Below, one piece after another: positions 6,930 to 59,835 of a stretch of 64,000 nt of DNA. Source of the stretch: Arctopsyche grandis (Eukaryota; Arthropoda; Insecta; Trichoptera; Hydropsychidae); assembly GCF_051622035.1 (NCBI RefSeq), contig NC_135356.1, positions 3,930,577-3,994,576 of the forward strand. Direction: 5' to 3'. A program made the position numbers and the translations under genes. Within the stretch, counting starts at the first letter, position 1. Each line of letters begins with the position of its first letter. Under the pieces are notes generated by a model, which was not told where the DNA came from, ran no database searches, and saw nothing but the letters and a program-made list of their open reading frames with translations.

Positions 6930-9532
6930 GGACTAATGGTATCTTATGAAATAGCACAAATTATTGGAAATGTGGTGCACCACATACATATGGAGAAAAA
7001 TTAATACTACCAGCTATACGTTTATTCATTAATCATATGATCGGACAAAACTAGCAAGAGATTCTTTCTTCAGTCCCATTGAGCAATGGCACGGTTTCAA
7101 AAAGAATTGATGAGATGGCAAATGAAGACTTCGTTTGAAAAACAGCATATGTCCATTTTTTTCGAAATCGATTTTATTGTTGCAAACGATAGTCCTGATC
7201 ACGGACTACATGCTCACTTTTTATTGGATGTGGAAAAAATCTCTTAGTCACTAAAAATGAGCGTCAAAAAATAGCCACTTTTGGAAAAACAACACTTGTC
7301 CAAGCATTTTGTTAGAAAAACAACATATGTCCAGGGACATATGTTGTTCTTCCTACAAGATCGGCCTCAAATGATGCATGTATGTACGTCATATGTTTTA
7401 TAACATCTTCTAATGGTATAATATTATTTTTTTAAACTATTGAATGGCACAATTTCATATTTTAAAAAATCGTTTTTTCATATTATTACATATTTTTTTC
7501 ACATTTCATACGTATATATGTATGTATATGTACATACATATAGGTATGATTGTGATTGTATGCATATTTACCTCTTATTTCATAATTTCCACATGTTTCT
7601 TTACGAATATATAATAACGAAGATTGGAATTAGTGGGTAATAAAAAATGATGATTTGTATGGACATAAATGTCACCCTTAGCTTATCCCACTTTTGTAGA
7701 AAGGATACCGCGTTATACGCTCGACTGCTACACCGTTTGGATTGCTTGCAGTCCCCTTTATTATCGGAACACATTGATTATTTGTTTAATATTTCTAGAA
7801 CAGTGATGAAGAACTTTTTCCTAGCTAAGAGCCAAACCAAGGAAAAAGTTGCAAAATTGAAAAGTTTGGGAGCCGCAACATAATAGTTTTGGATTGTATA
7901 TTAAAATTTAATATAGATCCTACTCATTTATGAGCTGAAAATTGTGGAGATGTATGAAAATCAATTTTTGAAATTTATGTTTCATACACCCTTATCGGAA
8001 TACGTATTTATATAATTTCACGTAAACTTTGGTAGACAATAAGAGCCGCGAGTTTTGATGCAAAGAGCCTCATGCGGCTCCGGAGCCACAGGTTACCGAC
8101 GACCACTGTTCTAGAAAGATCAAGTGGCGGAACTTATTAAGTTTGAATATTGTATTTTTAAATATTAAATGTATTAAATAAAGTATTTTTCAATAATTGC
8201 GCAATTTATGGATAAACGAATTATTGGTTATTTTATTTATTATTATTTTTTACGTGTATTTTTTAACTTTTATTTTTAAACTATTCTTATTATATATTGT
8301 ATTTTTAAATATAAAATGTATTAAATAGAGTATTTTTCAATAATTGCGAAATTTGTGGAAAAACGACCTATGTCCCACCTGGTTTTTATTTTTTATTATT
8401 TTTTACGTGTATTTTGCAACTTTTTTAAACTATTCTTACTGTATATTTTATTTTTAAATATAAAATGTATTAAATAAAGTATTTTTCAATAATTATGGAA
8501 GATAAATAGTTTTTTTACTCTCCTGCACAATTCGTATTTTGTGACATGTGCTGTTTTTCAAACAAAGTCTTCAAATGTTCTAACAATTCACATTTAGTTG
8601 CAAAGAAGCTTAATGGAAGACTTCACAAATCGCTGAGTATCGTTATAGTTGTCATCAATAAAATAAAGTCCCATCCCTTGAATGATAGATTATTCCGTCA
8701 ACTGTGTAAAGAAAATGATGAAGAATTCGAACGACTTATCTTACATACAGAAGTAAGATGGCTCTCGAAAGGAAATTGTTTAAAAAGATTTTATTCACTA
8801 TTTGATACAATTGTGGAGTTTTTGGATGTAAACAATGAAAGCATATGCATTGAATTAAAACTACAACGAAATGATGTGGCTTATCTTTCGGATATATTCG
8901 GAAAGATAAATGAAAATCTCCTGAAGCTTCAAGGAAGCAATATCAGTCTTATTAAAGACAAAGGCATTATACTGAGCTTTATCAACAAACTCAAATTATT
9001 TAAAAATAATCTTCGTCGGCGAGAACTTCATCAGTTTCCTTCTTTACAACAATTAAAAGAAGATATGCTCAAAGATTCTGATTAAGAAACATACTGTAGC
9101 CACATTGACGCCCTTATCGAAGATATGATAATACCATTCAAGGACTTGTATGAACTTTTAATACCAGATTGGATAATTAATCCATTTTTATCAGATGTAG
9201 AAAGTGTCAGTCAAAATTTAAAAGAGCAGTTTATTGAGCTACAAAATGACTGTGAAGCTAAAATAGTATTCAATCAATGTGATTATGATGTTTTTTGGGT
9301 CCGTTTTCGCCATCGATACCCTCTTCTGTGGAAAGAGGTAAAATTGCCCATCTTAGCATTTCCTTCATCATATTTAGTAGAAAAGGGTTTTAGCGCAGTA
9401 ACGCATATATTAAAAAAATCCCGAAATCGATTACAGATAAGCCAAAGAGGAGATTTGAGACTGTATTTAACTAAACTTGAACCTAATTTTACTCAAGGCT
9501 CAAGGATCTCATTCATTTTTTTTAATTTTTAA
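6930..9532 (+). pseudogene. hAT transposase (ZBED5-like), broken
   Basis: An N-terminal relic lies at 6930-7135, including the word LSNGTVSKRIDEMA. After about 1.4 kb of unrelated sequence, the central region is open at 8546-9085 with LHTEVRWLSKGNCLKRF, the conserved hAT motif around the catalytic core. After a stop it resumes at 9125-9532, ending in the C-terminal dimerisation domain: FWVRFRHRYPLLW, then LAFPSSYLVEKGFSAV and SRNRLQ. Family order matches ZBED5/SCAND3-like hAT transposases. Stops and insertions make it non-functional. Confidence 0.8.
7801..8108. mobile_element. Non-autonomous hAT MITE with perfect 8-bp TSD
   Basis: TTCTAGAA occurs immediately outside both ends (7793-7800 and 8109-8116). 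The element starts CAGTGATGAAG and ends ACGACCACTG, matching hAT CAGTG/CACTG termini. The right subterminal region has GCGGCTCCGGAGCC, a short palindrome. It interrupts a small frame that runs from 7647 and holds no coding sequence of its own. Confidence 0.8.
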
Positions 9533-15032: not shown

Positions 15033-17260
15033 CTACGACTTAGAAGCAGGCTCCTGGCGTCTCCTTTCCCTTTCGGACTGCAACTTCTCCCCGATCACGG
15101 AGGCAGCAAAGGCCTCCCAAGCCGACCAGCTCCCTCTGTCGCGGAGCATGGAATCCATCACCATCCCCATCCATAGCGTTTCCTCCCCGATCGTGGCTTT
15201 GAGGGCCTCTCTCGGGGCATCCCACGCAGGACAGTGACAGTCATTGCCGCAGATCTCCATCGTCATCGACATCATCAGCAAAAGCAACGGTACTGGCACC
15301 CTCCGGGAGCTCCACCCTCAGTAACCCGTCATACACAGGACTGGTCCGAGGACAGAGCCCTGCGGGACGCCCGACGAGAGTCGCCGCGAGGAGAGATCAC
15401 CGGTAGTGCCGCACCGGTACTCCAGCAGTCGGTCTTTAAAGTAACTCTCCAGCAGTCTCGTCAGGTAGCGGGGCACCCGATAGTCCTCCCCGACGGCTCT
15501 TAGGATATTATCCCATCAAGCCGAGATGAAGGCGTTTCGGATGTCCAGTGCCACCAGAGCGACATGCTTGCTCCGCTTCACAGATCCTTCCCATGCCGAT
15601 CGTACTGTTCCGACGACATGGTTGACGGCGTCGATCGTTGATCGGCCCCGCCTGAATCCGTATTGAAGCGGGGAGAGTCCCGTGGCGTCATCTTCGAGGA
15701 ACGGCTGAAGTCTCTGGAGAGTCAGTCTCTCCAGGAGCTTCCCGAATCCATCGAGCATACACAGCGGCCTGTAAGAGGACGGTCCCACCGCAAGGCTCTT
15801 CTTAGGTATTAGCACGAGCTTTTGCCTCTTCCAAGCCCCGCCGAAGGTCCCCTTCCACAGGCACGCATTGTAGCACGAGTAGGACATCGGGGAAGGCCCT
15901 CCCTACCGCCGAGACTATTTCGTTCGGGACTCCATCCGGGCCCGGAGCTTTGTTTATTTATTTATTTATTTATATATATTTTAGCTATCAAGCTAATTTA
16001 AATTAATTTGTGGGCCTTAAAGCCCTTCAGGGCCCGCTCCAGTTCGCCCTTTTGGAACAGCGGGCATTCCTCACCATCAGTTGGGACGTCGAGCGCTCGC
16101 GCTCGCTCCGGGTGTTCCGGAAAGAGCCCATCGACCACAGTTTTCAGATTCTCCGGGTCGTCGAGATAGGGATCGGCCGACCGACCGCGCAGCTTCTGTC
16201 GCACTATTTTGTACGGGAGTCCCCACGGATCGGTGTCGACCATCTCACACAGCTCCCGCCAGCACTTCTTTTTGCTGTCCTTGATGGCACCCTTGAGTGC
16301 CTTCCGCGCATTTCGGTACAGTTCATCCGCCTCCAGGGTTTGCCCTACTCTCTGCGCAAGCCTTCTGAGGGCGAGGAAACTCTTACGGAGCCCAGCTATG
16401 GTGTCGTTCCACCAATACACCGGCCTCCTCATAGTACCCCTCCCCCTTCGAGTCATTGCAGAGTCACACGCGCGTTTGGTTAGCACGCCGAGCGCCTCTA
16501 CCATTGCTTCGGCCCCGGGAGCAGAGTAAACTGTGCCACCGCCAGCAGAAAACGTCTCTTCGAGTGCCAAGACATCGAGACTGCGGATGCACCAGCCAAT
16601 CTCGTTGGCGATTGGGCCCTCGCGACCAGCCGGAGCACCCACGATCTCATACCAGATGTACTGGTGGTCGCTGTGTGAGTAGTCATCCAAGACCTTCCAG
16701 TTGTTGATTCTGCCAGCAATGCCGTCGTCAGCGAAGGTGACGTCAACGACGGAGCCGCTGGCTCCCCTGCGACACGTGAGCTCATTGCCCACGTTTGCTG
16801 GGGTCAACTGGGGGCTAGCGGCCAACTCGCTGAGGAGGATTCCCCTTCGATCCGTGATCGAAGACCCCCAACTTGCCGACTTGGCGTTGAAATCTCCGGA
16901 CACTACGATAGAGGTTCCTCTCTTGACTCCTCTGAGATCAAATTCAAGACGACCCAAATCGTCTTCAAACTGCGGTAGGTCCGAGTTCGGGGAGAAGTAG
17001 CAGCTCTAGATCCGCAGACCCGCCAACTCAACCCAGACAAACCCACTCACAGCTGGATCAGATGAGCCGATTACTCGATGCTGGGTCGAGGGAACGTAAA
17101 TCGCTGCCGTGGCCGAAGCATCAGAGTACCAGGAACTAGTTCTGTTCCTCCACTGCTCCGACACAACAACAATTTCCGCCGCCAACTCGACCGACTTCTG
17201 CAGCAGAAGATCCTGAGCAGCACGGTCCCAATTTTATTTGGAAGACTCTAGCCATTTTTG
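15033..17260 (-). pseudogene. R1-clade ORF2: endonuclease and reverse transcriptase, broken
   Basis: The endonuclease region is largely open at 15998-16957 and includes VSGDFNAKSASWGS and SHSDHQYI, the GDFNAK and SDH motifs of AP-like endonucleases. The reverse transcriptase follows at 15516-15960, with APGPDGVPNE, QYGFRRGRSTIDAV and the first catalytic block LDIRNAF. A FADD motif survives near 15275-15290. Disruptions include a stop near 17008 and an insertion of about 50 bp (15957-16010, TTTA repeats plus TAGCTATCAAGCTA) between endonuclease and RT. The sequence between palm motifs and the C-terminus is frameshifted and shortened. Confidence 0.8.
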
Positions 17261-17267
17261 TGCAAAC

Positions 17268-18347
17268 TTACCCTCTTTTTAGTTGTAACACCTGCCTAAA
17301 TGCCTCACACCGTGCGCTTCCGAGACGATGGGTAGCACTTTGGCCCATCTTTGCGCATAGAGCACAGTGTGGTGAGTCGCTGCACTCCACCGCTTTGTGC
17401 CCCGTTTTGCCGCAGTAGTTGCAGAGCGAAGACCTATCTTCACCCATGCAGCCAGCAGCAATGTGTCCAAAGGCTCGACAGCGGTAGCACTGCTGCAGGT
17501 CAACTTTTTCTCTTACCCTGCACCTAACAAGTCCGACTCGTACGCGACCCTCCTTGAGCAGCGCGTCGGTCTCGGTGGTGCAGGGCAAGGTCACCGTGCA
17601 GGTGAGCGTACCTCCGGAGGCTGGGCGCAGCCTCTGCACTCGCACCTGCTCACGAAAATTGGTGCCAAAGGCCCGTACGAGGGCATCCTCCACGTCGCGA
17701 GATTCAAGACCCTCATAGAGATCCCTGATGAAACACTGGCGGGTGGGGAGCGACCGTCGGACATCCGCCGCCATTCCTGCAGCCTTCCGAATGACGTCCT
17801 CCAGGGCGCCGCCGCGGCTCTCTCTTCATGTCAAGCGCAGGATGAGGGTGCCCTTCGTGCCTCTTCGAATGGAGCGGATCTCCGGGGGCTTCTCTTCGCC
17901 TTTCCCCCATTCCGTTTCATTCACGGCCTTGAGTATGGCCGCGTAAGAGAACGGAGTGGCAGTGGCACTCGAACCAGAACCCTGCGCGTCAGCACATTTC
18001 ACGGGCGTGATGATGAGTGCCTCCGTCTTCTCCCGCGGCTTAATCTTAATCTTGGGGTTTTTTGTTTTAGTTTTAGGCGGCAGTGGGGTCGCATTCTTCA
18101 TCTTTTTTTCCGCTTTTTTCTTCGGGACAGCAGTACTACTCGTCCTCTTGCCGTCCGTCTTCTTTTACGGGGAGGTTTGGCAATTCTTAATTTTTTCCAT
18201 GTGGGCATCGATAGACGCCACCATTTCCTTAATCTCTCCATGCACGTTTTTATGCTCTGTAAAAAACTTGCACAATGCTTTAATTTCTTTTCTCACTTCC
18301 TCAATTACTTCCTTTATTTGAATTATTTTAGTCGTGATTGATCCCAC
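17268..18347 (-). pseudogene. R1-clade ORF1 (Gag-like), frameshifted
   Basis: Three consecutive pieces lie on the minus strand. The N-terminal piece (18347-18165) is coiled-coil-like and charged. A Lys-rich/Pro piece follows (18101-17826). The C-terminal piece (17774-17268) has an RNA-binding-like fold region and three zinc knuckles: CYRCRAFGHIAAGC, CNYCGKTGHKAVEC and a variant beginning CALCAKMGQ. Three knuckles in ORF1 are typical of the R1 clade. Frameshifts separate the pieces. Long frames on the opposite strand (such as 17397-18341) are shadows of this GC-rich coding region. Confidence 0.8.
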
Positions 18348-20997: not shown

Positions 20998-23209
20998 GGG
21001 GATGAACGAATGAGACGACTGGCATGTTAATGCACGTGTTTATTATATGACAGCTAAAGGCAGAGTGAGTAGTGGCTCTCCGAACCCAGCCGAGTTGGTT
21101 CCCACTCGCAGGAAGGCAACCAAACTCGACCATGTCGTATAAGCGAGCCGCCACAATTTCATTCGCAATATGTGGAATATTTCCATACGCTGCCCAACCG
21201 TCCGAAATTATATGCGAACCAGACAGTATATGTCGCAGTATTTCATCGGGTAAAAGTCGAGTTAATTTAGGGCACGGCAATACTATTGGCATCGCAAAGA
21301 GTAGCCAATCACAGGGGATGAACGAATGAGACGACTGGCATGTTAATGCACGTGTTTATTATATGACAGCTAAAGGCAGAGTGAGTAGTGGCTCTCCGAA
21401 CCCAGCCGAGTTGGTTCCCACTCGCAGGAAGGCAACCAAACTCGACCATGTCGTATAAGCGAGCCGCCACAATATCATTCGCAATATGTGAAATATTTCC
21501 ATACGCTGCCCAACCGTCCGAAATTATATGCGAACCAGACAGTATATGTCGCAGTATTTCATCGGGTAAAAGTCGAGTTAATTTAGGACACGGTAATACT
21601 ATCGGCATCGCAAAGAGTAGCCAATCACAGGGGATGAACGAATGAGACGACTGGCATGTTAATGCACGTGTTTATTATATGACAGCTAAAGGCAGAGTGA
21701 GTAGTGGCTCTCCGAACCCAGCCGAGTTGGTTCCCACTCGCAGGAAGGCAACCAAACTCGACCATGTCGTATAAGCGAGCCGCCACAATTTCATTCGCAA
21801 TATGTGGAATATTTCCATACGCTGCCCAACCGTCCGAAATTATATGCAAACCAGACAGTATATGTCGCAGTATTTCATCGGGTAAAAGTCGAGTTAATTT
21901 AGGGCACGGCAATACTATTGGCATCGCAAAGAGTAGCCAATCACAGGGGATGAACGAATGAGACGACTGGCATGTTAATGCACGTGTTTATTATATGACA
22001 GCTAAAGGCAGAGTGAGTAGTGGCTCTCCGAACCCAGCCGAGTTGGTTCCCACTCGCAGGAAGGCAACCAAACTCGACCATGTCGTATAAGCGAGCCGCC
22101 ACAATATCATTCGCAATATGTGAAATATTTCCATACGCTGCCCAACCGTCCGAAATTATATGCGAACCAGACAGTATATGTCGCAGTATTTCATCGGGTA
22201 AAAGTCGAGTTAATTTAGGACACGGTAATACTATCGGCATCGCAAAGAGTAGCCAATCACAGGGGATGAACGAATGAGACGACTGGCATGTTAATGCACG
22301 TGTTTATTATATGACAGCTAAAGGCAGAGTGAGTAGTGGCTCTCCGAACCCAGCCGAGTTGGTTCCCACTCGCAGGAAGGCAACCAAACTCGACCATGTC
22401 GTATAAGCGAGCCGCCACAATTTCATTCGCAATATGTGGAATATTTCCATACGCTGCCCAACCGTCCGAAATTATATGCAAACCAGACAGTATATGTCGC
22501 AGTATTTCATCGGGTAAAAGTCGAGTTAATTTAGGGCACGGCAATACTATTGGCATCGCAAAGAGTAGCCAATCACAGGGGATGAACGAATGAGACGACT
22601 GGCATGTTAATGCACGTGTTTATTATATGACAGCTAAAGGCAGAGTGAGTAGTGGCTCTCCGAACCCAGCCGAGTTGGTTCCCACTCGCAGGAAGGCAAC
22701 CAAACTCGACCATGTCGTATAAGCGAGCCACCACAATATCATTCGCAATATGTGAAATATTTCCATACGCTGCCCAACCGTCCGAAATTATATGCGAACC
22801 AGACAGTATATGTCGCAGTATTTCATCGGGTAAAAGTCGAGTTAATTTAGGGCACGGCAATACTATTGGCATCGCAAAGAGTAGCCAATCACAGGGGATG
22901 AACGAATGAGACGACTGGCATGTTAATGCACGTGTTTATTATATGACAGCTAAAGGCAGAGTGAGTAGTGGCTCTCCGAACCCAGCCGAGTTGGTTCCCA
23001 CTCGCAGGAAGGCAACCAAACTCGACCATGTCGTATAAGCGAGCCGCCACAATTTCATTCGCAATATGTGGAATATTTCCATACGCTGCCCAACCGTCCG
23101 AAATTATATGCGAACCAGACAGTATATGTCGCAGTATTTCATCGGGTAAAAGTCGAGTTAATTTAGGGCACGGCAATACTATTGGCATCGCAAAGAGTGG
23201 CCAATCACA
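20998..23209. repeat. Seven-unit 316-bp tandem array derived from Merlin
   Basis: Seven consecutive units of exactly 316 bp, nearly identical. On the minus strand each unit encodes part of a Merlin transposase (LLPDEILRHILSGSHIISDG with GWAAYGNI) fused to unrelated sequence. Two unit types alternate: type 1 has TTTCATTCGCAATATGTGGA and GGGCACGGCAATACTATTGG, type 2 has TATCATTCGCAATATGTGAA and GGACACGGTAATACTATCGG. Units 3 and 5 share a private change (ATGCAAACC). The pattern is a 632-bp dimeric higher-order repeat. Frames on either strand repeat because the DNA repeats; I do not treat them as genes. Confidence 0.9.
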
Positions 23210-23586
23210 GGAAGAAGCGGGTCGACCGAGCCTCGCTTCCATGCCTAGAGGGTCCGCACTGTCGAGAATTCAGACTTTTACCAAGATATTTGATATTTTC
23301 ACAGAATTAATAGTGAGTAGTGAGAAGTTAAATTTCACCTTGGCGAATAAATAGTTGCGTTTTGAGTTTGATTTAATCACTCGTTCTCTGGTTATGATTT
23401 GAAAAAATAGCCAAATCAAAAAAAAAATAGCATTTTGCTATTTTATCAAAGTACTGCCTGCGCACGGCACTGGCCGAATAATGTCGTGCTACGGTTTTAG
23501 TCTCACTCACTCCCCCACTACCTTACCTAATTCAATTGACACTTTTGACAGCTGGCTTTAATCCAGCTTTGTGCGTTGACCAGGTC
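23210..23586. other. Array edge and upstream region of the IMPase gene
   Basis: The first part (to about 23280) continues the Merlin-derived sequence beyond the last unit, with GGGTCGACCGAGCCTCGCTT as also seen near 20305 (complement) and 33231. The rest has no repeat I recognise and forms the 5' flank of the gene starting near 23587. Confidence 0.4.
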
Positions 23587-32575: not shown

Positions 32576-33061
32576 CTCGAGCTCAACTCCCCACTTTTAC
32601 TATCCACCCATGTTTGAAATGATTGAAAATGAAAATTAAATTGAAAAAAAAAACATAATATATACATATGTAGTTTATCAATGAGACTTTTGGGTGTTGT
32701 TTTTTTTTTTTATTTTAATAAAAACGTTATTTTAACGAAAGTAAATATTATTCTAATGTTCATCAGGTCATATTAATATTATAACTTTGTATGAGATTGG
32801 GATACTAATTTTTCTTATGACTCCTGAATGTTATCTTTTAATAGTGTTTTTTGATTTGTTGATGTAAACTTCACTTTCAAAAAAAAAAGCAAAAAGTGTC
32901 GAGTCGTATGATATTGAATTTCATACGCATTGCTACTTATTTTCGCTCGTGTTGTTTTTGACTTGAACATTATTAATTTTTGCAGTTTTTTAATTTCCCT
33001 GATTCGTTTTGATTCATATTTAGATGAATTTGCATTGAACCACAAACGAATGCGTGTATAT
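32576..33061. other. Gene-free stretch with Merlin-like tail
   Basis: AT-rich sequence. On the minus strand, the part nearest 33061 continues the Merlin frame (GIYTHSFVV) before stops. No other feature was recognised. Confidence 0.35.
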
Positions 33062-33295
33062 TCCATTCGCAATATGTGGAATATTTTCGTACGCTGCCCA
33101 ACCGTTCGAAATTATATGCGAACCAGGCAGTATACATATGTTGGAGTATTTCATCAGGTAAAAGTCGAGTTAATTCAGGGCACGGCAATACTAAAGTACT
33201 CGCAAAGAGCAACCAATGACAGGAAGGAGCGGGTCGATCGAGCCTCGCTTCCGAGCCTAGAGGGTCCGCCCTGTCGAGAATTCCAACTTTTACCT
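33062..33295 (-). pseudogene. Merlin transposase fragment, second locus
   Basis: This is similar to one part of the 316-bp array unit. On the minus strand it reads GSHIISNGWAAYENIPHIAN followed by GIYTHSFVV. As at 20451, Asn replaces the catalytic Asp of the ISDGW block. The sequence continues with CGAGCCTCGCTT at 33240-33251, as at the right edge of the array. This shows the array unit came from a dispersed element. Confidence 0.6.
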
Positions 33296-33526
33296 ACATA
33301 TGTATATGTTACAGTGAAAGCATATTTCAAGTGAAAATATATTTTCACCAATTGAAGCAGTGAAAATGTATCAAAAAATGAATTTACATCGTTTAACTCT
33401 ATAAATTTAACCCTAACAACCCAATCTTAAATGAATAAGGCCAACCCTTACTTAACCTAACCTTTAAATAAAAGCAACCCTAACAATCTAATCTTAAATG
33501 AATAAAACCAACCCTAATAAACTATG

Positions 33527-33690
33527 GGGGATGAACAAATGAGACGACTGGCATGTTAATGCACGTGTTTTATGTATGACAGCTGAAGGCAGAGTGAGTA
33601 GCTAACTTCGAACACAATCGAGTTGGTCCCCACTCGCAGGAAGGTGACCAAACTCGACCATGTCGTATAGCGAGCCGCCACAAAACTAAT
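33527..33690 (-). repeat. Merlin-array unit fragment
   Basis: GGGGATGAACAAATGAGACG to GAGCCGCCACAA matches the first half of the 316-bp unit of the array at 20998, with several differences and one frameshift. It is a dispersed relative rather than part of the array. Confidence 0.75.
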
Positions 33691-35306: not shown

Positions 35307-36003
35307 TAAGCAATCTAGTAATATAAACCCCTGTTATAATTCCAACTAACTTCCGTACTTTTTGCACAATTTTTTGTTACTTTTTTTGTAGTTTTTTTTT
35401 GTTATTAGCAAGTTTGAAATGCGACCTGTCGTGCGGATTGGCCGCGGACGCTACGCAAACCGGCGTAACTTTTAAACGTCAATTTCAAATATGTAATATT
35501 CAAATAAGAAATAATACGATTCGATTGTTTTGAAACTTTTTGCGCCTGAGAGTTATATGGGGCAACATGGCTACATGGCTACTTGTTTACTTTTTCTGTA
35601 AACTGCATATGTGCATACTGAGAAACGATTTAATAATTGTTGTCAACCGAGCGTGGTGTATGCTTCAGTGGTCAATCAACTGTGGTTCGCGAGCTCTAAT
35701 CGAAACTTTTTACATTCTCTGCATTTTTATTCTGAACCTTTTCGTCATTCAAAGTAAGCAATCTTATCGTCTGAAATTGTTTAATTAGTAGTGTTGTGCC
35801 CGATGGAATATCATCGCATGTAGGGCTGCCAAGTGTCACGGAAAAAAAAAAACAACATTCAAAAAAAAAATTATTTTTACAAATTTCTTTATAATTGTGC
35901 TGGTTATTATTAAAGTGAAATAAGTCATTTAAGGTAATACCATTATTTTACAAGTTTATCGTAAAATTCCCTCAGTACAGGAAAGATTATATATACATAT
36001 AAG
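35307..36003. other. Gene-free stretch, candidate intron
   Basis: No coding region recognised. If the promoter at 35226 serves the gene at 39408, this is the start of its first intron. The AT content rises quickly after 35900. Confidence 0.35.
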
Positions 36004-36654
36004 CAGTGGTGTAGTGCTAAATAAAAAAGAACCAGGGCGGTATTTAATTTCTATGACCTCCCCCCTCTCTTTTTATCACTTAAAAATATGTATCCTAATA
36101 TTGGTAGTTCAAATATTTATAAAAAAAATCATTATGCTAATTAACAAATATTATTGTTGAAATTGTAATTTTTTTTTATATTTTCTAAGTATAATAATAA
36201 AAATAACTAATAGAAAAAAATATATAGAAAAGATTTTGGAAAAGAAGAATTACAAAAATCTTCAAGTTTAAAAAAAGACTTCCAGCTTGTTTTTAAAAAT
36301 ATTATGGTTTTCGGAATTTACTACATTTTTGAGAAGATTATTTCAAACTTTAACCCCCTGTTTGAAAAGAAAGAATCTCTTATCAATTTATTCGATTTTT
36401 CTTTTTAGAGTCTGAGAGTGTGACCTCTAAGATGAGTGTTTTCACTGAACGTAATAAATTTGGACATAATACGATTACAATGATGATTATTTATTATTTT
36501 AAAGACTTCGATTAAGTGGCTTCTTATTCTTCTCATCTCAAGTGTTATTAATATTAGCCAAAGTATTTTTTTAATTTTACTCATAAAACAATTTTCATAT
36601 CAATCAAAGTGCCAGGGCGGTGACCTGCCCCACCTGGCCCGACTACACCACTGC
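36004..36654 (-). mobile_element. hAT-like element carrying a LINE fragment, short copy
   Basis: The ends CAGTGGTGTAGTGC and CGACTACACCACTG are inverted. The 8-mer CATATAAG lies directly outside both (35996-36003 and 36655-36662), a perfect hAT-type TSD. On the minus strand the interior encodes the extreme C-terminus of a LINE reverse transcriptase (LEMRRIRSHLIEVFKI) and its 3' region. The same ends and junctions occur in the 1.57-kb copy at 58260, in opposite orientation. Confidence 0.85.
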
Positions 36655-36662
36655 ATATAAGG

Positions 36663-39407: not shown

Positions 39408-41592
39408 ATGAATAACAAGTCGAATAAATTTAATAACCTGAAAAAATTATTCCCTACGCTTTTATCCCAGAGTAAATCCAAAAGAAAAATTGCCGAAAGT
39501 GAGGAAGCAGCCGGTAGGGATGCACAGGAATATGATTCTGACGGAAACAGATGTATATATTCCGGGGGCTATGACGATGCGAAAGGAAGCCTCGATAAGC
39601 AATTCAATTTAAAAAGGATAGTAAACATCAAGTCGAACAAACCGGACAGCTCTAGACTCAAGTCTAATCTTCAAAGTGGGATTAATTTTGATTCATTGCA
39701 TGCTAGGGACCTTGTAACGGAGACAAATTTTGATATATGTAAGAACTTGTCTGATGGCAATTTTTCAGAGAAAAACAATCCCGAAAAAAGCACTAGTTCT
39801 TCGAGTAGCACGTTAGTATCGGAAACGGACCAGGATAAAAACTTCAAGAGAAAAAATGATACACCGAGCAAATTTGTCAGGAAAGGCTCTTTCAATGAAA
39901 CTTCCCTACGGAGTGGTCCATCGTCCCTGCCGACTGAAAAGCTGAACGTGTATCATGGCGACTCAACCTTCAAAAGCGGAAGAATGTCTGCTCCAATCAT
40001 CTATCAAAGGAAGGAACTCGAGGTCAAGGAGCATGTATCTCCCGTCAACTATCGTAGAAAGAAACTATTGTCACCGAAAGCCATACGACCACTCCAATCT
40101 AGCAATGAGGGTGGTTTTATTGAAAATATCAAGACCCAAAAAGAGGTAACATACAAAGAAAGCAGTAACACATTTGTACCCGTCAGTTCCGTGGAAATAA
40201 CGGTAGCTTTGAGTCCCCAACCGACACACTTTAAGAAGAAAGTCAACAACCAATCGCCGCTATCGAATGTCACCACAATTCATTATCCGATCGTGTTAAA
40301 TCCCATATCTTCAAAATACAAAGAAAATTTACCCCCGAATATAATCGATAACGTCCAGAGCTCGCCTATTTACGACAACATGAGTCAACTATCCGTCGCA
40401 TGCTTGGAAGACGATTCCGTCAATAAATCCAAAGAAATCCCCAATGTGAAGATTCGAGCCACGTCCACTCCCATATCCTCGAACGCGAGCAGAAGCAAAG
40501 CCGAATGGCAAACTCCGGTCACATTGGCCGGCAATCGGAATAGCAACTTTGGCACACTGCAGAAACTGCGCAACCTTCAAAACGTAGAAGCCTTCTACTG
40601 GCAGCAAATCAAAAAGATCAAACAGAAACAAGACAACGAACTGCTGAAGCAAACCATGTCAGCCAACAATCTTGCCCAGATGGAATTGAAAAACTTACCG
40701 ACTTTACCGAACCGCTCACAGCCCAGGTTCGATCAGCTCCGATGCAGAAGCGTAAGCCCTGCTTTCGCCCGAGCCTCGGAATATAACGTCGTCTCATCAC
40801 AACAACTGACTCCGACAAACATCAACATATACAGAACCAACCGGTCAGTGAACAAATACGTATTACAACCCAGCAATCCTAACTTCGTCCGAGGTTCACA
40901 ATACAGAAACACCATCGGTTCCACCGACACGATATCGTTGAACAGGAACTCCAAACAGGAATATTCAGCGAATAGCGAAACCAAGTTTGGCACACTTGGA
41001 ATGAAAACAGGCACTCAATACCAAAATGCGAGACTCGTTGATCCAATCAGGTCGAAGAATTGCGAACGTCCACCGATCTTCAAACGGGGAAGTTTATCGG
41101 GTGACGGAATTTTAAACGCTTCGTTGAAAGAGAAGAGGGTTAGCTTTTCGAAACTGGACAAGGTCGAACCGGAGGCAGAGTGTCCCGTTGACATGGAAAT
41201 GTTTTTCCCGAGCTCGTTGATGGAGGAGCCTCAGATCGTCAGCAGACCACAACAGCAGCAGCCGCCAGAAAATGTGTACGGTGAGATACGGAAACCGTTC
41301 AATCCGTATGGTTACATTCAGACTGGGTTACCGAGGAGTGATCCGTCAAAATGTGTCGTGCAGCCCAACAGAAGCCTGAACGTCGGTGGCAAGATACCGA
41401 TGCATCGTTACGGCTATCCGACGGCCAGTGCAGCTCGGGTCAGGACTTCCGTCAGGCCCTACGGGCTCCAGACAAGTGAGGATGCAAACGTCGGCAGGTC
41501 TGGAGTGGGATCCGAGTCGGAGAGTGGATCGGAGGCTGGAGAGGTGCGCCGGATAATGCTCGGCAGCAGTGCTGACTCCAATCGAATGTCTA
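39408..41592 (+). CDS. Large coding exon of an unrecognised disordered protein
   Basis: The exon probably runs 39087-41592. An in-frame TGA at 39363 precedes the ATG at 39408, supporting this start, though short upstream ATGs exist. It encodes 728 residues plus one base; a donor A|GTAAGTG at 41593 comes just before the in-frame stop at 41598, so translation probably continues in a later exon. The protein is basic, Ser/Asn/Lys-rich and largely disordered. One likely helix spans about residues 383-425, with VEAFYWQQIKKIKQKQDNEL. A Gln/Pro run lies near 613-620, YGEIRKPFNPYGYIQTG follows, and an acidic SESESGSEAGE segment lies near 704-714. No signal peptide or membrane segment is seen. I do not recognise the family; a cytoskeletal or scaffold role is possible but unsupported. 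Confidence 0.85.
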
Positions 41593-41600
41593 GTAAGTGA

Positions 41601-43815: not shown

Positions 43816-44650
43816 GCCTTCTAGGGCTTCGCCCTCGGCGCCCCCCTGAGCCTTTGCCTTCTAGGGCTTCGCCCCTCCACGCCCCATGAGCAATTGCCGT
43901 TTAGGGCTTCGCCCCCCTTAGTTAATGCCTTTTAGGGCTTCGCCCCTCCGCACCCCCATGATTAAATGCCGTCTAGGGCTTCGCCCCCCTTAGTTAATGC
44001 CTTTTAGGGCTTCGCCCCCCGCGCCCCCAAGATTAATTGCCGTTTAGGGCTTCGCCCCCCTTAGTTAATGCCTTTTAGGGCTTCGCCCCTCCGCGCCCCC
44101 ATGATTAAATGCCGTCTAAGGCTTCGCTCCCATGATCAGTTGCCTTTTAGGGCTTCGCCCCCCACGCCCCCAAGATTAATTGCCGTTTAGGGCTTCGCCC
44201 CCCTTAGTTAATGCCTTTTAGGGCTTCGCCCCTCCGCGCCCCCATGATTAAATGCCGTCTAAGGCTTCGCCCCCATGATCAGTTGCCTTTTAGGGCTTCG
44301 CCCCCCGCGCCCCCAAGATTAATTGCCGTTTAGGGCTTCGCCCCCCTTAGTTAATGCCTTTTAGGGCTTCGCCCCTCCGCGCCCCCATGATTAAATGCCG
44401 TCTAAGGCTTCGCCCCCATGATCAGTTGCCTTTTAGGGCTTCGCCCCCCGCGCCCCCAAGATTAATTGCCGTTTAGGGCTTCGCCCCCCTTAGTTAATGC
44501 CTTTTAGGGCTTCGCCCCTCCGCGCCCCCATGATTAAATGCCGTCTAAGGCTTCGCCCCCATGATCAGTTGCCTTTTAGGGCTTCGCCCCTCCGCGCCCC
44601 CATGATTAATTGCCGTCTAGGGCTTCGCCCCCCTTAGTTAATGCCTATTA
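43816..44650. repeat. 143-bp higher-order hairpin array
   Basis: The basic motif is GGGCTTCGCCC, a short self-complementary hairpin, preceded by TGCC(G/T)TTTA or TGCCGTCTA. Motifs come in sets: TGCCGTCT occurs at 44110, 44253, 44396 and 44539, exactly 143 bp apart, and within each set the spacers (TTAGTTAA, CATGATTAAA, CATGATCAG, AAGATTAAT) keep order. It is a tandem higher-order repeat, not coding. Confidence 0.9.
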
Positions 44651-45040
44651 GGGCTTGCGCCCCATGAGGCTGGGCCCCCCGGGCCCCCTTCGGGGCCCCA
44701 CGGGGCTGCGCCCCTTGTGGCGCCCCCTTTTGAGCCCCATGGGGCTGCGCCCCATGAGGCTGGGCCCCCCGGGCCCCCTTCGGGGCCCCACGGGGCTGCG
44801 CCCCTTGTGGCGCCCCCTTTTGAGCCCCATGGGGCTGCGCCCCATGAGGCTGGGCCCCCCGCGCCCCCTTCGGGGCTTCACGGGGCTGCGCCCCTTGTGG
44901 CACCCCCTTTTGAGCCCCATGGGGCTGCGCCCCATGAGGCTGGGCCCCCCGGGCCCCCTTCGGGGCCCCACGGGGCTGCGCCCCTTGTGGCGCCCCCTTT
45001 TGAGCCCCACGGGGCTGCGCCCCTTGTGGCGCCCCTGGCG
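44651..45040. repeat. 90-bp GC-rich tandem repeat
   Basis: About four units of 90 bp, each with CATGAGGCTGGGCCCCCCG, TTCGGGGCCCCACGGGGC and CTTGTGGCGCCCCC. Composition is very GC-rich in an AT-rich region. Period 90 is a multiple of three, so all frames stay open; these frames are artefacts. Confidence 0.9.
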
Positions 45041-45282
45041 GGGCCCCATGAAACTACTCGCTTTGCGCCCCCGCGGGGGTGAATCCATTGAAACGAAAAA
45101 AACAAATCGGCGCCCATGGATCGAAAAAAAAAAAATCGAATCACGTGTTCGATGACGTCACCGATCTACGGACGACGACGACGACGACGACGAAAACGAC
45201 GAAAACGACGAAAACGACGAAAACGACGAAGACCAAGGATATTTACATACATACAAAGTCTCTTTCCAAATTATAGATTAGA

Positions 45283-45452
45283 TAATGCACTACGCGTCAC
45301 GCGACAGAGTTGCCTTTTGTATCAACTTTGCCGTGTTGTGTCGTGCTGCAGCAGTCGACGGCCGTATAGTGCGGTCAGACCTTAAGTTTTGCTGTCCATA
45401 ACATGACGTTGACAATTACTTTTATCGTCTAAAACATATAAATTTCCATTAA
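45283..45452. other. Spacer between the two Helitron-like elements
   Basis: The 170 bp include the right part of the Harbinger-type MITE (to 45382), its TAA duplication, and 67 bp of AT-rich host sequence. It forms the loop of the inverted Helitron pair. Confidence 0.7.
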
Positions 45453-45639
45453 TCTAATATATAATTTGGAAAGAGACTTTGTATGTATGTATGTATGTAT
45501 GTAAATATGTATCCGTCGTCGTCCGTAGATCGGTGACGTTATCGAACACGTGATTCGATTTTTTTTTTTTCGATCCATAGGCGCCGATTTGTTTTTTTCG
45601 ATTCAATGGATTCCCCCCGCGGGGTCGCAAGGCGAGTAG

Positions 45640-46400
45640 TTTCATGGGGCCCCGCTAGGGGCGCCACAAGGGCCGCAGCCTTATGGGGCCCCGAAGGGGA
45701 CGCAGGGGGGTGCAGCCTCATGGGGCGCAGATTTATGGGGCGCAGCCTTATCGGGCGCAGCCTTATGGGGCGCAGCCTTATGGGGTGCAGCCTTATGGGG
45801 CGCTGCCTTATGGGGCGCAGCCTTATGGGAAGCCGCCTTATGGGGCGCCGCCTTATGGAGCTCAGCCGCATGGGGCCCCGAAGGGGGCGCAAGGGGGCGC
45901 AGCCTCATGGGGCGCAGCCTTATGGGGCGCAGTCTTATGGGGCGCAGCCTTATGGGGCGCTGCCTTATGGGGCGCAGCCTTATGGCGCGCCGCCTTATGG
46001 GGCGCCGCCTGATGGAGCTCAGCCGCATGGGGCCCCGCAGGGGGCGCAGGGGGGCGCAGCCTTATCGGGCGCAGTCTTACGGGGCCCCGAAGGGGGCGCA
46101 AGGGGGCGCAACCTCATGGGGCGCAGGGGGGCGCAGCTTTATGGGGCGCAGCCTTATGGGGCGCAGCCTTATGGGGCGCTGCCTTATGGGGCGCTGCCTT
46201 ATGGGGCGCAGCCTTATGGGGAGCCGCCTTATGGAGCTCAGCCGCATGGGCCCCCAAGGGGGCAAAGGGGGGCGCAGCTTTATGGGGCGCGGCTTTATGG
46301 GGCGCAGCCTTATCGGGCGCAGTCTTATGGGGCGCAGCCTCATGGGGCGCAGCCCCATGGGGCCCCGAAGGGGGCGCAAGGGGGCGCAGCCTTATGGGGC
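45640..46400. repeat. 15-bp GC-rich tandem repeats in Helitron B
   Basis: Dozens of copies of GGGGCGCAGCCTTAT with variants, interrupted by GGGGCCCCGAAGGGGGCGCA. The period is a multiple of three, so several frames on both strands stay open (PYGAQPYGAQ-type or RPIRLRPIRL-type peptides); these are not genes. Confidence 0.9.
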
Positions 46401-46960
46401 GAAGCCCTACACGGCAACTGATCATGGGGGCGAAGCCCTAGACGGCATTTAATCATGGGGGCGCGGAGGGGCGAAGCCCTAAAAGGCATTAACTTAGGGG
46501 GGCGAAGCCCTAGACGGCAATTTATCATGGGAGCGCGGAGGGGCGAAGCCCTAAAAGGCATTAACTAAGGGGGGCGTAGCCCTAGACGGCAATTAATCAT
46601 GGGGACGCGGAGGGGCGAAGCCCTAAAAGGCAACTGATCATGGGGGCGAAGCCCTAGACGGCATTTAATCATCGGGGCGCGGAGGGGCGAAGCCCTAAAA
46701 GGCATTAATTAAGGGGGGCGAAGCCCTAGACGGCATTTGATCATGGGGCCGCGGAGGGGCGAAGCCCTAAAAGGCAACTGATCATGGGGGCGAAGCCCTA
46801 GATGGCATTTAATCATGAGGGCGTGGAGGGGCGAAGCCCTAAAAGGCATCAGCTAAGGGGGGCGAAGCCCTAAACGGCAATAGCTCATGGGGGCGTGGAG
46901 GGGCGAAGCCCTAATAGGCAAATGCTGAGGGGGGCGCCGAGGGCGAAGCCCTAGAAGGCA
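46400..46960. repeat. GGCGAAGCCCTA array in Helitron B
   Basis: Complement of the array type at 43816: units such as GGGGCGAAGCCCTAAAAGGC and GGCGAAGCCCTAGACGGCA, separated by TTAACTAAGG, TTTAATCATGG and AACTGATCATGG. Its order is less regular than in element A, which suggests separate expansion. Confidence 0.85.
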
Positions 46961-47122
46961 AAAAAAAAAGATTTTTTTTTTTGATTTTTTTTATTATTTT
47001 TTTTTTATTTTTTTTGATTTTCTTATTTATTTATTTTTTTTAATTAAATGTTAACTATTAGCTTAGTCATGTTTAAGCGGTTTATTTTATAAATACTGAG
47101 CGAAGCCGGGTAATACAGCTAG

Positions 47123-49034: not shown

Positions 49035-50285
49035 ACAGTTGGGCTGAAAAGTTCGTAGGCTAGCATAGAATTTTTTTTTGTTAGAATTTGATTTTATTAT
49101 TCAATATAGTTGCCTTCGAGGGCGATACAACGATTATAGCGGTCATACAATTTTTCGATACCATTTTTATAGTACGATTTGTCTTTAGCCTCAAAATAGG
49201 CTTCAGTTTCGGCGATTACCTCTTCATCGGCGCAAAGTTTCTGTCCAGCGAGCATCCTCTGAGAACAGGAAAAAGTCGCTGGGGGCCAGATCTGGAGAAT
49301 ACGGTGGATGCAGAAGCAATTCGAAGCCCAATTCATGCAATTTTGCCATCGTTTTCATTGATTTGTGACACGGTGCATTGTCTTGATGAAACAGCACTTT
49401 CTTCTTCTTCAAATGGGGCCGTTTTTCCGCGATTTCGTCCTTCAAACGCTCCAATAACGCTACGTAATAGTCGCTGTTTATGGTTTTTCCCTTTTTAAGA
49501 TAGTCTATGAATATTATAGTATGCGCATCCAAAAATACTGATGCCATAACCTTGCCAGCCGACTTTTGCGTCTTTCCACGCTTTGGAGTCACTTCATCAC
49601 GTGCAGTCCACTCGGCTGACTGTCGATTGGACTCCGGTGTGAAATGATGGAGCCATGTTTCATCAATTGTCACATATCGACGCAAAAATTCGGGTTTATT
49701 ACAATTGAACAGCTCAAAATCATCAATTCGTTGTTGTTTTTGGTCGATTGTGAACTCGCGCGGCACCCACTTTGAACAGAGCTTTCGCATACCCAAATAT
49801 TCATTCACGATATGTCCAGCACGTTCCTTTGATATCTTTAGGGTCTCAGCTATCTCAACCAACTTCACTTTACGGTTATCCAAAATTATTTTGTGGAATT
49901 TTTTGATGTTTTCGTCGGTAACAGCCTCTTTGGGGCGTCCACTTCGTGCATCGTCCTCGGTTCTCATTTCGCCTCGCTTAAACTTAGCAAACCACTTCTC
50001 AACGGTTGATTTTCCTGGTGCAAGGTCCGAATAATGTTTATCAAGCCAAGCCTTGGCTTCAATAGTATTTTTTTTCGCCAAAAAGCGATGCTTTATTAAC
50101 ACACGAAATTCCTTTTTATCCATTTTTTCAAACTAATAAAAGTTGCTTCACTCAAAATGCTATAACTCACAAACTAATAGTACGACAGCTGTCAAATTTA
50201 TACACGTGTATTTTGAAGGTTAGGGCTAACTAAAAATCATATGGATTTAATACTAGTAGTCAGCCTACGAACTTTTCAGCCCACC
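49035..50285 (-). mobile_element. mariner transposon, almost complete
   Basis: A perfect 22-bp inverted repeat TGGGCTGAAAAGTTCGTAGG-CT occurs at 49040-49061 and, as complement, at 50262-50283. TA dinucleotides flank at 49033-49034 and 50286-50287. A transposase gene fills the minus strand. At about 1.25 kb the size is typical of mariner. It is the youngest-looking DNA transposon in the window. Confidence 0.9.
49097..50123 (-). pseudogene. mariner transposase, one small deletion
   Basis: The ATG is at 50123. The first 290 or so codons are open and include a helix-turn-helix N-terminus, the linker WVPREF (family WVPHxL), and the catalytic D,D34D triad. The triad is D154 in TIDETW, D248 in FHQDNAP and D283 in LAPSDFF, with 34 residues between the last two. 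Near 49256-49262 about 10-11 bases are missing relative to the family, shifting the frame just after DFFLFS. The remaining C-terminus (RMLAGQKLCADEEV to EGNYIE, ending at 49097) is intact in the other frame. One indel therefore separates it from a full reading frame. Confidence 0.9.
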
Positions 50286-56229: not shown

Positions 56230-58190
56230 ATGCTGGGCAGATTTGGATAATTTTGATTTGATTACCAAATTGGCCACCTATTACTGGCCTATTTGTCTGG
56301 TGAATCCGTATTCAGACGTAGGCGATTACCATGGGCAGACATCGTTTATGGCCCGTGCGAATTCTTCCCTATCATGGGCAAGCCGAAATAGCTTTTCGAG
56401 ACCGAGTCCCATCCATGACCTGATGTTCCGGAGCCAAGAGAGCTTCTTTCTCCCAAGCCACCGTTTGCCTTCTATTTTCCCTTCTATGATTGTTTGTAGA
56501 AGGCGATATTTAATGTGGCCAAAGTATTCCATCTTACGGCGCTTCACCGTGTCAAGAAGCTCTCTCTTTTTATGAAGACGCTGGAGGACTGTTTCGTTTC
56601 TTACATGCTCCTTCCACGAGATCTTTAGCATCCTCCGGTAGCACCACATTTCAAAGGACTCTATCCTGTTCATGGATGCCACTAACAGTGTCCACGTTTC
56701 GCATCCGTACAGCAACACCGACCAAACATAGGAGTGCAGGACTCTTAAACGCAATTTCATAGACAACCTTCGACAACATAAAACATTTTTCATGCTGCCG
56801 AAGGCATTTCTTGCTATTTCGATCCTTCTTCTTATCTCCATTTCGGAACTGACTTCCGTATTGATCATTGCTCCTAGGTATTTGTATTGTTCGACCTGTT
56901 CAATCATTTGTCCGCGCACACTCAGGTTTCATGGATCCGTCTTTTCTTTACATATTACCATTGATTTTGTCTTGTTGATATTAATAGACGGACCCCATTT
57001 TTTAAATGAATGATCAATTGCGATCAATAACGATTGTAGGTCTTCGGCACTCTCAGTCAATATTGCCGTATCATCAGCGAAACGGATATTATTTATAATT
57101 TCGCCACCTATTTTTACTCCTATTCGACTATCGACTGCCTGGTTGAACACCATTTCCGAATACAGATTGAAGAGCATGGGCGAAAATACACATCCCTGCC
57201 GTACCCCTCGACTAATTTCTACTTTTTCGGTTTCCAAGTCTTCAACCTTCACGACAGCAGATTGGTTCCAATATAGGTTCTTCAAAAGGGCGATATCCTT
57301 TGCATCTATACCGGTTTGGTTTAGTGCATGGATTAATTTATCATGTTCCACTCTATCAAATGCTTTTTCAAAGTCTATGAATCAGACGTATATCCTTTTT
57401 TTGAAATCCCTACACTTTTGTAGGAGTACGTTCATGCAGAACAACGCTTCCCTTGTTCCCAATCCTCCTCTGAATCCAAATTGCGAATCGCTTATCATAC
57501 TTTCGCACTTACGCCTTATTCTCTCTTGGATGATTTTGAGAAGTATTTAAAGGGTGTGGCTCATTAAACTTATCAATCTATAGTCATTGCAGCCGGTTGG
57601 CTTATTTTTTTTTGGTAAGGGAATAAACGTTAACTGCAACCATTCTTGAGGGATTTTACCAGTTTCATATATAATATTTAATTGAAAAGTTTCGTCAGTA
57701 TTAATTTTAATAATTCTACAGGAATAGAATCCTTTCCAGGAGCTTTTTTATTTTTGGCCTTTTAGATTGCATTTTTAACCTCAGATTGTAATATACTCAG
57801 ACTTGATATTTGAAATCCTTCCCTTATTTCTGGTTCAGTACGTTGTGTTTGAAAATTTTCTTCTATATATTCCTTCCATATTCCATATTTTCTTCTATAT
57901 ATTCTTTCCATTTTTCAGCCGTATTGCTTGCAAGTCCTTCTCTTTCGCTTCTTTTATCTTTTTGCGAATCAAACGGTGGATATCTTTATATCGAGCGTTG
58001 TCTGTATTTTTAAATGTTCTTCGGTGGTCCATTACGTCTAGAATTTCTTTCGTCATCCATTCATGTTTTTTTGTTAAATTGGTATCTTTGACCAATATTT
58101 CCTTACTAGGTTCATCGATGGCCTTTTTAATTTTATACCAATTGTCATCTACTGTGTCTTATGTTATCACTTACCACTATTGAATATAAT
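56230..58190 (-). pseudogene. RTE-type LINE reverse transcriptase, 5'-truncated
   Basis: On the minus strand the order is a linker (58095-57895, KKHEWMTKEILDVMDHRRTF), then RT fingers GFRGGLGTREALF and FIDFEKAFDR, then GVRQGCVFSPMLFN and the catalytic NNIRFADDTAIL. The C-terminal YGCETWTLLVASMNRIESFE, IKYRLLQTIIEGKIEGKRW and AHDREEFARAINDV complete it. Two TGA codons (near 57379 and at 56931) lie in the otherwise continuous frame from FIDFEKAF to the terminal W, and further stops lie upstream. The endonuclease is missing. It was probably once an autonomous LINE. Confidence 0.85.
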
Positions 58191-58417
58191 TTTTAATTTA
58201 TACATACTTATATTATGTTCAAGTATAGCCATAGGTGACGCTTTGGGGTCACCTGTAATCAGTGTTGTAGTCGGGGCAGGTCGCCGCGCTGGCATTTTGA
58301 TATGAAAATTGTTTTATGAGTAAAATTAAAAAATATTTTGGCTAATATTAATAACACTTGAGACGAGAAGAATAAGAGGTGACTTAATCGAAGTCTTTAA
58401 AATAATAAATAATAATC

Positions 58418-58978
58418 ATGTGGTTAAAAACTTGGCTTCTAACTTTAAATGTTAAGAAATGCTCTGTACTACACCTAGGCAAAAATAACCCAAGTCTTTC
58501 CTACAAAATAAACAATCATTTCATCAATTGCGTCCAACATCAATTAGACCTAGGTATCATCACCACTTGCGACCTAAAATGGTCCTCTCATATTAACCAT
58601 ATTGTGAACAAATGTTACTCAATTTTTTATGTAATAAAACGTGTGTTAAATATTTTGAGCTTAACTATGTTATCAAAAATATACAAAACTTTTATCAGAC
58701 CCAAACTAGATTACGCTTTTAGCACATGGAATCCTCATTTTAAAAAACATGTTATATGTATCGAAAGGGTAAAAAGGAGAATTACAAAGATTCCTTCTGA
58801 ACTTAATTCACTTTCTTATAACGAAAGATTGAAAAGAATGAATCTCACTACACTGGAGACGAGAAGAATAAGAGGCGAAGTCTTTAAAATACTAAATAAT
58901 CATTATAAATGTCATATGTCCAATCGTATTACATTCAACGAAAACACTCACCTCAGAGGTCACTCGTTTACACTCTAA
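58418..58978 (+). CDS. LINE reverse-transcriptase C-terminal domain inside the hAT-like element
   Basis: 186 open codons. WLKTWLLTLNVKKCSVLHLG is the segment that directly follows the FADD catalytic motif in CR1/Jockey-like LINEs; the FADD itself is absent. Then come LGIITTCDLKWSSHI, YKTFIRPKLDYAFSTWNPHF, RRITKIPSEL and YNERLKRMNLTTLETRRIRG, all standard RT thumb and C-terminal words. The fragment cannot polymerise. Its openness over 561 bases may mean recent capture. A short duplicate of its end (GAGACGAGAAGAATAAGAGG) lies upstream at 58360 as well as at 58856. Confidence 0.7.
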   Translation: MWLKTWLLTLNVKKCSVLHLGKNNPSLSYKINNHFINCVQHQLDLGIITTCDLKWSSHINHIVNKCYSIFYVIKRVLNILSLTMLSKIYKTFIRPKLDYAFSTWNPHFKKHVICIERVKRRITKIPSELNSLSYNERLKRMNLTTLETRRIRGEVFKILNNHYKCHMSNRITFNENTHLRGHSFTL

Positions 58979-59071
58979 AAAGAAAAAAATAGAATAAATT
59001 GATCAGAGATTTCTTCTTTGGAATAATCTTCCCAACAATGTAGTAAATTCTGAAAACCATAATATTTTTAG

Positions 59072-59504
59072 GGCGTGATCACACAGCGAGGGAGCGGTAT
59101 GCTGTACGCGGGATATTTTTTTAGATAGTTTGCTGTACGGCGTATCATACGCTTATACCGCGTATGATACGCCGTATCTTGCGGGATTGGAGCGGTCTCG
59201 TTGAAATTATACTAACTTGACGGTGATATATACCAATTCGTCGACCCTCGGACGGAGCATGACAGTGATCGATAACGGTGTATCCCATATTTGCAAAAAA
59301 ATATAGCAGAACTGTCATGCTCCGTCCGAAGGTCGACGAATTGGTATATATCACCGTCAAGTTAGTATAAACAATTCTATAGAATTTCAACGAGACCGCT
59401 CCAATCCCGCAAGATATAAGCGTGTTTTTTTTTTGTATGTTTAAAACTATCTAAAAAAAATATCCCGCGTACAGAATACCACTCCCTCGCTGTGTGATCA
59501 CGCC
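59072..59504. repeat. Palindromic MITE of the GGCGTGATCACACAG family, copy 2
   Basis: GGCGTGATCACACAGCGAGG at the left and its complement at the right, ending CACGCC. Long inverted arms include GCGGGATATTTTTTTAGATA and ACCAATTCGTCGACC. The 36004 copy of the host element shows the uninterrupted sequence ATATTTTTAAAAACAAG; comparing them gives a 4-bp target duplication TTTA. Confidence 0.85.
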
Positions 59505-59835
59505 TTTAAAAACAAGCTAGAAGTCTTTCTTAAACTTGTAGATTTTTGTAATTCTTCTTTTCCAATATCTTTTCTATATTTTTGTTTTCTTTTAGTTATT
59601 TTGAAACTTATTATTATGAAGTTTTTAAAGGATATATGTACATATAAAACATCATAATTTCAACAAGAATATTTGTTTATCAGCATTTGATTTTTTTTAG
59701 ACATATTTGAACTACCAATATTAGGTTACACATTTTTTAAGTGATGAAAAAAGAGAGAGGGGGGGGGGGGTCATAAAAGTTAAACACCGCCCTGGTTCTT
59801 TTTTATTTAGCAAAACACACACCACTGCCTGTAAT

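Follow-up and report, generated by a model that had tools for sequence, protein, structure and literature searches.

The window, the whole 64,000-nucleotide stretch analysed here, contains two copies of a hAT-type DNA transposon family that carries part of a LINE. With high confidence, the full history can be read as a parent hAT element that received a LINE insertion, was shortened by deletions, spread, recombined with a LINE and acquired a nested insertion, with the reverse transcriptase (RT) fragment as a passenger.

In this history, a nonautonomous hAT family of about 0.7 kb with CAGTGGTGTAG../..CTACACCACTG ends and an 8-bp target site duplication (TSD) would have come first. A 5′-truncated LINE would have entered one of its copies by target-primed reverse transcription, duplicating TAATATT, as shown by empty and filled sites. 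Internal deletions, shown by intermediates, would have stripped out the LINE 3′ end together with some of the hAT interior, and the 687-bp product would have been moved in trans by a putative hAT transposase to at least dozens of loci, a movement marked by TSDs. One 687-bp copy would then have recombined with a genomic LINE copy; the recombination is shown below, and its probable route is LINE synthesis upstream of the shared slice and microhomology joining, most simply during excision-gap repair. The resulting long form would have moved at least once, and a PIF/Harbinger-like element would have landed later in the window copy.

Structure of the two window copies

The long copy starts with CAGTG at 58260, ends with CACTG at 59827 and is 1568 bp long. 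It is flanked by the exact 8-bp TSD CCTGTAAT (58252-58259 and 59828-59835), which confirmed by sequence the DNA transposon proposed at this position from the sequence alone. Its parts are as follows.

58252-58259, no strand: left TSD, CCTGTAAT, from the sequence
58260-58353, plus strand: hAT left end (CAGTGTTGTAGTC..), including the LINE target TAATATT (58343-58349) and four extra bases; placed by alignment with the chimaera consensus and with LINE-free parent copies
58354-58419, plus strand: LINE piece A, the 5′-truncated start of the original insertion (ACACTTGAG..)
58420-58980, plus strand: extra LINE stretch attributed to a second event, from diagnostic columns, split trees and junction search
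58418-58978, plus strand: open frame of 186 codons, about residues 440-635 of the LINE frame, with no functional evidence
58981-59070, plus strand: the original chimaera's LINE C-terminal coding slice as far as the nested element; its left limit is approximate
59071-59505, no strand: nested inverted-repeat element with TSD TTA, outside the hAT-LINE family; site empty in the short copy and in locus L002
59506-59603, plus strand: remaining LINE slice (C-terminus and start of the 3′ UTR); LINE 3′ end absent
59604-59617, no strand: approximate scar of the internal deletion that took out the LINE 3′ end and some hAT interior; placed by the discontinuity between consensus positions 483 and 494 relative to L052 and L053
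59618-59827, plus strand: hAT right end, ..CACACACCACTG
59828-59835, no strand: right TSD, CCTGTAAT, from the sequence

The short copy lies in the opposite orientation and is composed as follows.

35996-36003, no strand: TSD CATATAAG, exact
36004-36653, minus strand: short copy, 650 bp
about 36004-36203: hAT right end
about 36204-36545: LINE slice
about 36546-36653: hAT left end
36654-36661, no strand: TSD CATATAAG, exact

The separate TSD previously assigned to the short copy was exact on both sides. The two copies had also been said to share their hAT/LINE junctions. This held for the outer junctions but not for the inside, where, compared with the short copy, approximately 560 bp of the long copy (58420 to about 58980) reads as LINE and not as chimaera.

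The nested element is 435 bp long, which accounts for the 1568-bp length of the long copy. Its matching terminal inverted repeats, GGGCGTGATCACACAGC and the reverse complement of AGGCGTGATCACACAGC, are bordered on both sides by TTA, in agreement with the 3-bp TWA duplication of PIF/Harbinger elements, to which it presumably belongs. The short copy and L002, the only other long copy found, have an empty site here, and the element inserted later into the window copy.

Several other features were observed elsewhere in the window. A mariner-type transposase frame of 299 aa (HTH_48, Transposase_1, DDE_3) lies at 49224-50123 (minus strand). Non-LTR retrotransposon remnants are present on the minus strand at 15516-17774, with endonuclease, CCHC and RVT_1 pieces, and at 56326-57351, with RVT_1. 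At 20998-23289 a 316-bp unit is repeated seven times head to tail, its copies being 98-100% alike across 300 bases, and diverged pieces of the unit recur at about 33060-33669. Tandem repeat blocks of 71-72 bp, 90 bp and 15 bp, partly inverted, leave long open frames at 43839-47008. A 730-aa open frame at 39408-41600 (plus strand), with no Pfam match at E 0.001, is possibly a host gene exon.

The chimaeric family and its transposase

The searched assembly comprises 475.7 Mb, and the window covers positions 3930577-3994576 of its contig C2. With the short copy as query, 47 matches were obtained among the best 40 of 2502 first-look candidates; all 40 matched, query included, and the main matches other than the query were 83-90% identical. 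The first 30, which span at least 550 of 650 bases, were examined as loci L019-L048, L019 being the window short copy. Both termini were found by the match rule in 18 of these 30. An exact 8-bp TSD was present in 13 of the 18 two-ended loci, and 15 had a TSD with at most one mismatch; one further locus, L041, has an exact TSD and stands outside this count, its right end having failed the match rule. Control flanks mispaired across copies gave no exact pair in 306 and nine pairs that differ at no more than one base; the TSDs are not a product of chance.

The chimaera consensus is 687 bp long, and its 20 member copies, among them the rule failures L036 and L041, are 2.8-8.7% divergent. Its terminal inverted repeats, CAGTGGTGTAG and CTACACCACTG, are short and begin with CAGTG; the long window copy has one mismatch at the left terminal end. 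An 8-bp TSD, as expected of hAT elements, was found at family loci and at both window copies, and the foreign sequence between the terminal inverted repeats moves with the element, as in Pack-hATs. In a search with the right end only (best 40 of 1131 candidates scored), 19 of the 40 were present neither in the short-copy table nor among the long copies. All 19 were fetched, and part of the LINE slice was matched in 18, L050 being the sole exception. All copy numbers are lower bounds, the best 40 candidates having been scored per DNA search.

These results support the sequence-only reading in its central claim of a hAT-type transposon carrying a LINE fragment. Mobility after the chimaera formed, which had been claimed for at least one event, was borne out by an amplified family with exact TSDs, far more than once. 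The reading was to be given up if LINEs had CAGTG ends as their own sequence. None was seen among the best 40 candidates of the long-element search, in which matches start at or beyond query position 149 except for the element itself and L002; since none of their scored matches starts before this position, these LINE copies are without hAT ends. A LINE-free family with the same ends does exist. The chimaeric hAT family is real and well documented, and it was formed by ordinary events.

The family was very likely mobilised in trans by a hAT transposase. Such transposases are abundant in the genome, with 150 scored matches to PF05699. L098 encodes an intact 873-residue hAT transposase (DUF4371 and Dimer_Tnp_hAT) within a 3.4-kb element that has CAGTGGCGTA ends, related but not identical to those of the chimaera family, and matching GGTGGGTG flanks (an exact TSD). 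A right end of the CAGTGGCGTA type follows 6 of 18 sampled transposase flanks, the L098 locus included, and the family's exact right end follows none of the 18 stretches examined. Family-type ends were likewise not found around the transposase-like remnant at 8546-9532, and no autonomous element with exactly the chimaera family's ends was found in the 18 flanks or at this window remnant.

Further hAT-related sequences were observed. Another hAT-type MITE occupies 7801-8108 with the exact TSD TTCTAGAA (7793-7800 and 8109-8116); the hAT transposase remnants at 8546-9532, in which Dimer_Tnp_hAT falls below the cut-off, lie near it. Fourteen hAT transposase frames of 628 aa with nearly equal scores lie at 30.8-34.4 Mb on contig C2, which suggests a recent burst or local spread.

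Two gains of LINE sequence and the open frame

A LINE-free parent family that shares the chimaeras' ends and interior was reached through L050 (best 40 of 1102 candidates scored). The LINE insertion point corresponds to query position 45 of the L050 search, and on reading the match table a single match crossed it in 38 of the 40 scored candidates, L050 included. The two non-spanning candidates were L100, which has lost its left part, and L099, which carries a different inverted-repeat insert nearby with no LINE match and was rejected as another filled site. All ten fetched parent loci (L070-L079) had one hit across the insertion point; both ends were present in seven, with an exact TSD in three, one mismatch in three and three mismatches in one.

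Three filled loci retain the end of the inserted LINE. In L052 and L053 the LINE runs on to its 3′ terminal motif and tail, after which comes hAT interior, and L054 has the tail but an internally deleted LINE. In seven of nine aligned LINE copies a common 3′ terminal motif is kept, with TAAA-type repeats after it. The 5′ junction reads TAATATTAATA followed by ACACT.. in L052 and L054, and the same with one substitution in L053. After the LINE tail all three continue with (T)AATATTT.., whereas the parent has a single TAATATGTCAT.. (one TAATATG), so that a TAATATT-type repeat flanks the LINE in L052-L054 and is present once in the parent. This target duplication is 7 bp long, with a substitution in L053, and is not perfectly clean: the 3′ flank differs from the parent by one base and by a small deletion or length difference. 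L052-L054 therefore combine 5′ truncation, a tailed 3′ end, a target duplication and an empty site in relatives, as expected of target-primed LINE insertions.

Because L052-L054 keep the LINE 3′ end and the repeated target, the passenger entered by ordinary target-primed reverse transcription of a 5′-truncated LINE. The need for an unusual capture, as implied by the sequence-only reading, was not supported: the LINE brought a target duplication of its own. Neither the common 687-bp form nor either window copy has the LINE 3′ end. In the 687-bp form the LINE 3′ UTR meets the hAT interior at about consensus positions 483 and 494, and this form is for that reason a later internal-deletion derivative.

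Two other inserts in the parent family were observed. At about 1347-1595 of L071 (contig C8, 32153400-32155000), a same-family LINE closely follows a truncated parent hAT at a different position, possibly a second, independent LINE insertion into the parent family. L099 (contig C4, 611250-612700, minus strand) is a parent-type hAT with the exact TSD CACATACA, and its insert, an inverted repeat of roughly 390 bp, lies close to the LINE entry point of the other lineage.

The long form is known at two insertions, the window copy and L002/L009, about 100 kb apart on the same contig. In both, LINE piece A gives way at a later breakpoint, about 58419 in the window copy, to LINE sequence from further upstream; in the window copy CAT may be a microhomology at this point. 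The last LINE-like diagnostic base lies at about 58968, and the sequence is clearly chimaera-like again from 58992 and 59026. The switch falls at the same place in L002; both long copies have one contrary, chimaera-like column within the LINE-like run and one LINE-like column after the switch. In the first part of the slice the two long copies are 94.1 and 92.9% identical to older LINEs versus 82.9 and 82.1% to chimaeras; in the second part they are 92.8 and 89.4% identical to chimaeras versus 82.1 and 77.9% to LINEs. Split trees (FastTree, short alignments, without support values) grouped both within the LINE clade over the first half and within that of the chimaeras over the second. When the new junction was used as a query, 2 of 40 scored places spanned it, with the other matches stopping at query positions 89-90 (chimaeras) or starting at 79-100 (LINEs). 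At the level of sequence, the long form is thereby shown to be a recombinant of a chimaera with a genomic LINE copy.

No flank homology was found between the window copies and L002, which is without a left terminus and TSD. A segmental duplication of the two long copies was rejected, as their 1-kb flanks share only matches of 12-18 bases. Because the flanks are unrelated and the window copy has an exact TSD, the long form appears to have moved at least once, and this second movement is supported by those flanks and that one TSD. One breakpoint is homologous and the other microhomologous, which suggests synthesis-dependent repair of an excision gap; we infer that the LINE served as template. 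A 9-bp deletion common to the long copy and LINE L013 was rejected as proof of the donor and is probably a recurrent deletion between CGA repeats.

The structure of the common form would also be expected if, from the start, a hAT element had copied an internal LINE slice into itself through gap filling or template switching and no LINE insertion had taken place, as in Pack-TIRs: the 687-bp form and both window copies are without the LINE 3′ end, as an internal slice would be, and Pack-hATs are known in animals (PMC8277862). Yet the LINE 3′ end and the repeated target are still present in L052, L053 and L054, and the second tree partition sets L052 and L053 apart from the main chimaera clade, although in the first they lie among the other chimaeras. 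Direct capture is thus largely refuted for the first LINE piece and improbable as an account of the family; for the second piece (58420 to about 58980), an explanation of this type is preferred. Still less probable is a long ancestral form that gave rise to the short form by deletion between direct repeats A and A′. The homology of A (58354-58419) with A′ makes such a deletion mechanically possible, but the long junction was spanned at those 2 of the 40 scored places, against numerous short-type copies, L052 and L053 combine a LINE 3′ end with the short-type 5′ structure, and the extra stretch groups with LINEs and not with the chimaera slice. LINE insertion followed by deletion and later recombination remains the preferred reading.

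A third alternative is that selection maintains the RT-derived peptide, which would then serve the element in some way, for instance by acting in trans on LINE RNA. The 186-codon frame at 58418-58978 (plus strand) was confirmed, and the region aligns with residues 440-635 of the 682-residue frame of LINE L017, which has an RVT_1 reverse transcriptase domain at residues 248-460. A FADD stretch, which we take to be the RT catalytic motif, lies at about residue 414 of that frame and thus outside the fragment. The element's body had been described as the C-terminal half of an RT; its LINE derivation stands, but it represents the part after the catalytic core and not a catalytic half. The peptide alone gave no Pfam match at the gathering cut-off. 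Against the consensus of related older copies, the long copy differs by 14 synonymous changes (142.3 sites) and 32 nonsynonymous changes (556.7 sites), two of the latter being stops, in a compared region that extends past the open frame. The resulting selection ratio of 0.58, a crude count and not a maximum-likelihood test, might together with the open frame favour a selected peptide, but seven related copies, the sister long form L009 included, gave 0.47-2.06 and a young LINE lineage gave 0.29. In addition, a 10-bp frame-shifting deletion breaks the frame in L002, and the two stops and the missing catalytic motif argue in the same direction. The check for purifying selection proposed with the original reading therefore gave no constraint beyond that of degenerate LINE copies. 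A peptide function was rejected on this codon comparison and has a negligible probability; as far as the sequence can tell, the RT fragment is a passenger, and no role need be attributed to the peptide.

Of the whole history, the second gain of LINE sequence, anchored by homology, deserves further attention. It is conceivable, although we consider it unlikely, that a carried LINE fragment acts as a homology seed through which gap repair copies more LINE sequence from genomic copies into the transposon. If so, class I coding sequence could accumulate stepwise in class II elements, as by a ratchet, and the long form, with two insertions of one recombinant structure, would be one turn of the ratchet. 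Should homology-seeded capture prove common, it would provide a simple growth route for chimaeric transposons.

Comparison with known systems

The passenger is presumably derived from a CR1/Jockey-type non-LTR retrotransposon. Its slice resembles such LINEs in consisting of the LINE C-terminus and the start of the 3′ UTR, but unlike them it moves as a hAT passenger and not by reverse transcription. Among the matches listed from open PMC papers, there was no report of a LINE-carrying hAT MITE family, a result that says little.

In a screen of 100 animals, 208 of 370 Pack-TIRs were in hATs, with multicopy cases having distinct TSDs (PMC8277862). The present family resembles these Pack-hATs in its hAT termini, TSDs, foreign interior and amplification with distinct TSDs, as described there for Pack-hAT-N8_XT (PMC8277862). 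The origin proposed for Pack-TIRs in the same text, gap filling or template switching, is that inferred here for the second LINE piece, which fits DNA-level copying; the first passenger, unlike those of Pack-TIRs, entered by LINE insertion and does not fit such copying (PMC8277862). The screen demanded a unique best parental hit (PMC8277862), and because of this demand repeat-derived passengers would presumably drop out of it.

The silkworm Pegasus-like hAT MITEs BmMITE-14/15/16 have an 8-bp TSD and CAGTGGCG.. ends, close to the CAGTGGTG/CAGTGGCG of the chimaera family (PMC2997013). The consulted portion of that report mentions no LINE passenger for them (PMC2997013), and the comparison covers the ends and TSD.

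In maize, filler DNA and nested retrotransposons occur within Ds elements (PMC3260210). Like the present family they are nonautonomous hATs, with variable filler and, in some, inserted retrotransposons; they differ in being plant elements with, in the text cited, mostly LTR retrotransposons (PMC3260210). In contrast to what is described for Ds, the LINE nested here has spread with its host element to many loci, and a parent family with the empty site survives. Each step has precedents, and it is the record of all steps in one family that is notable: the empty parent, filled intermediate, deletion derivative and recombinant, all in one genome, document how a DNA transposon spreads retrotransposon coding sequence.
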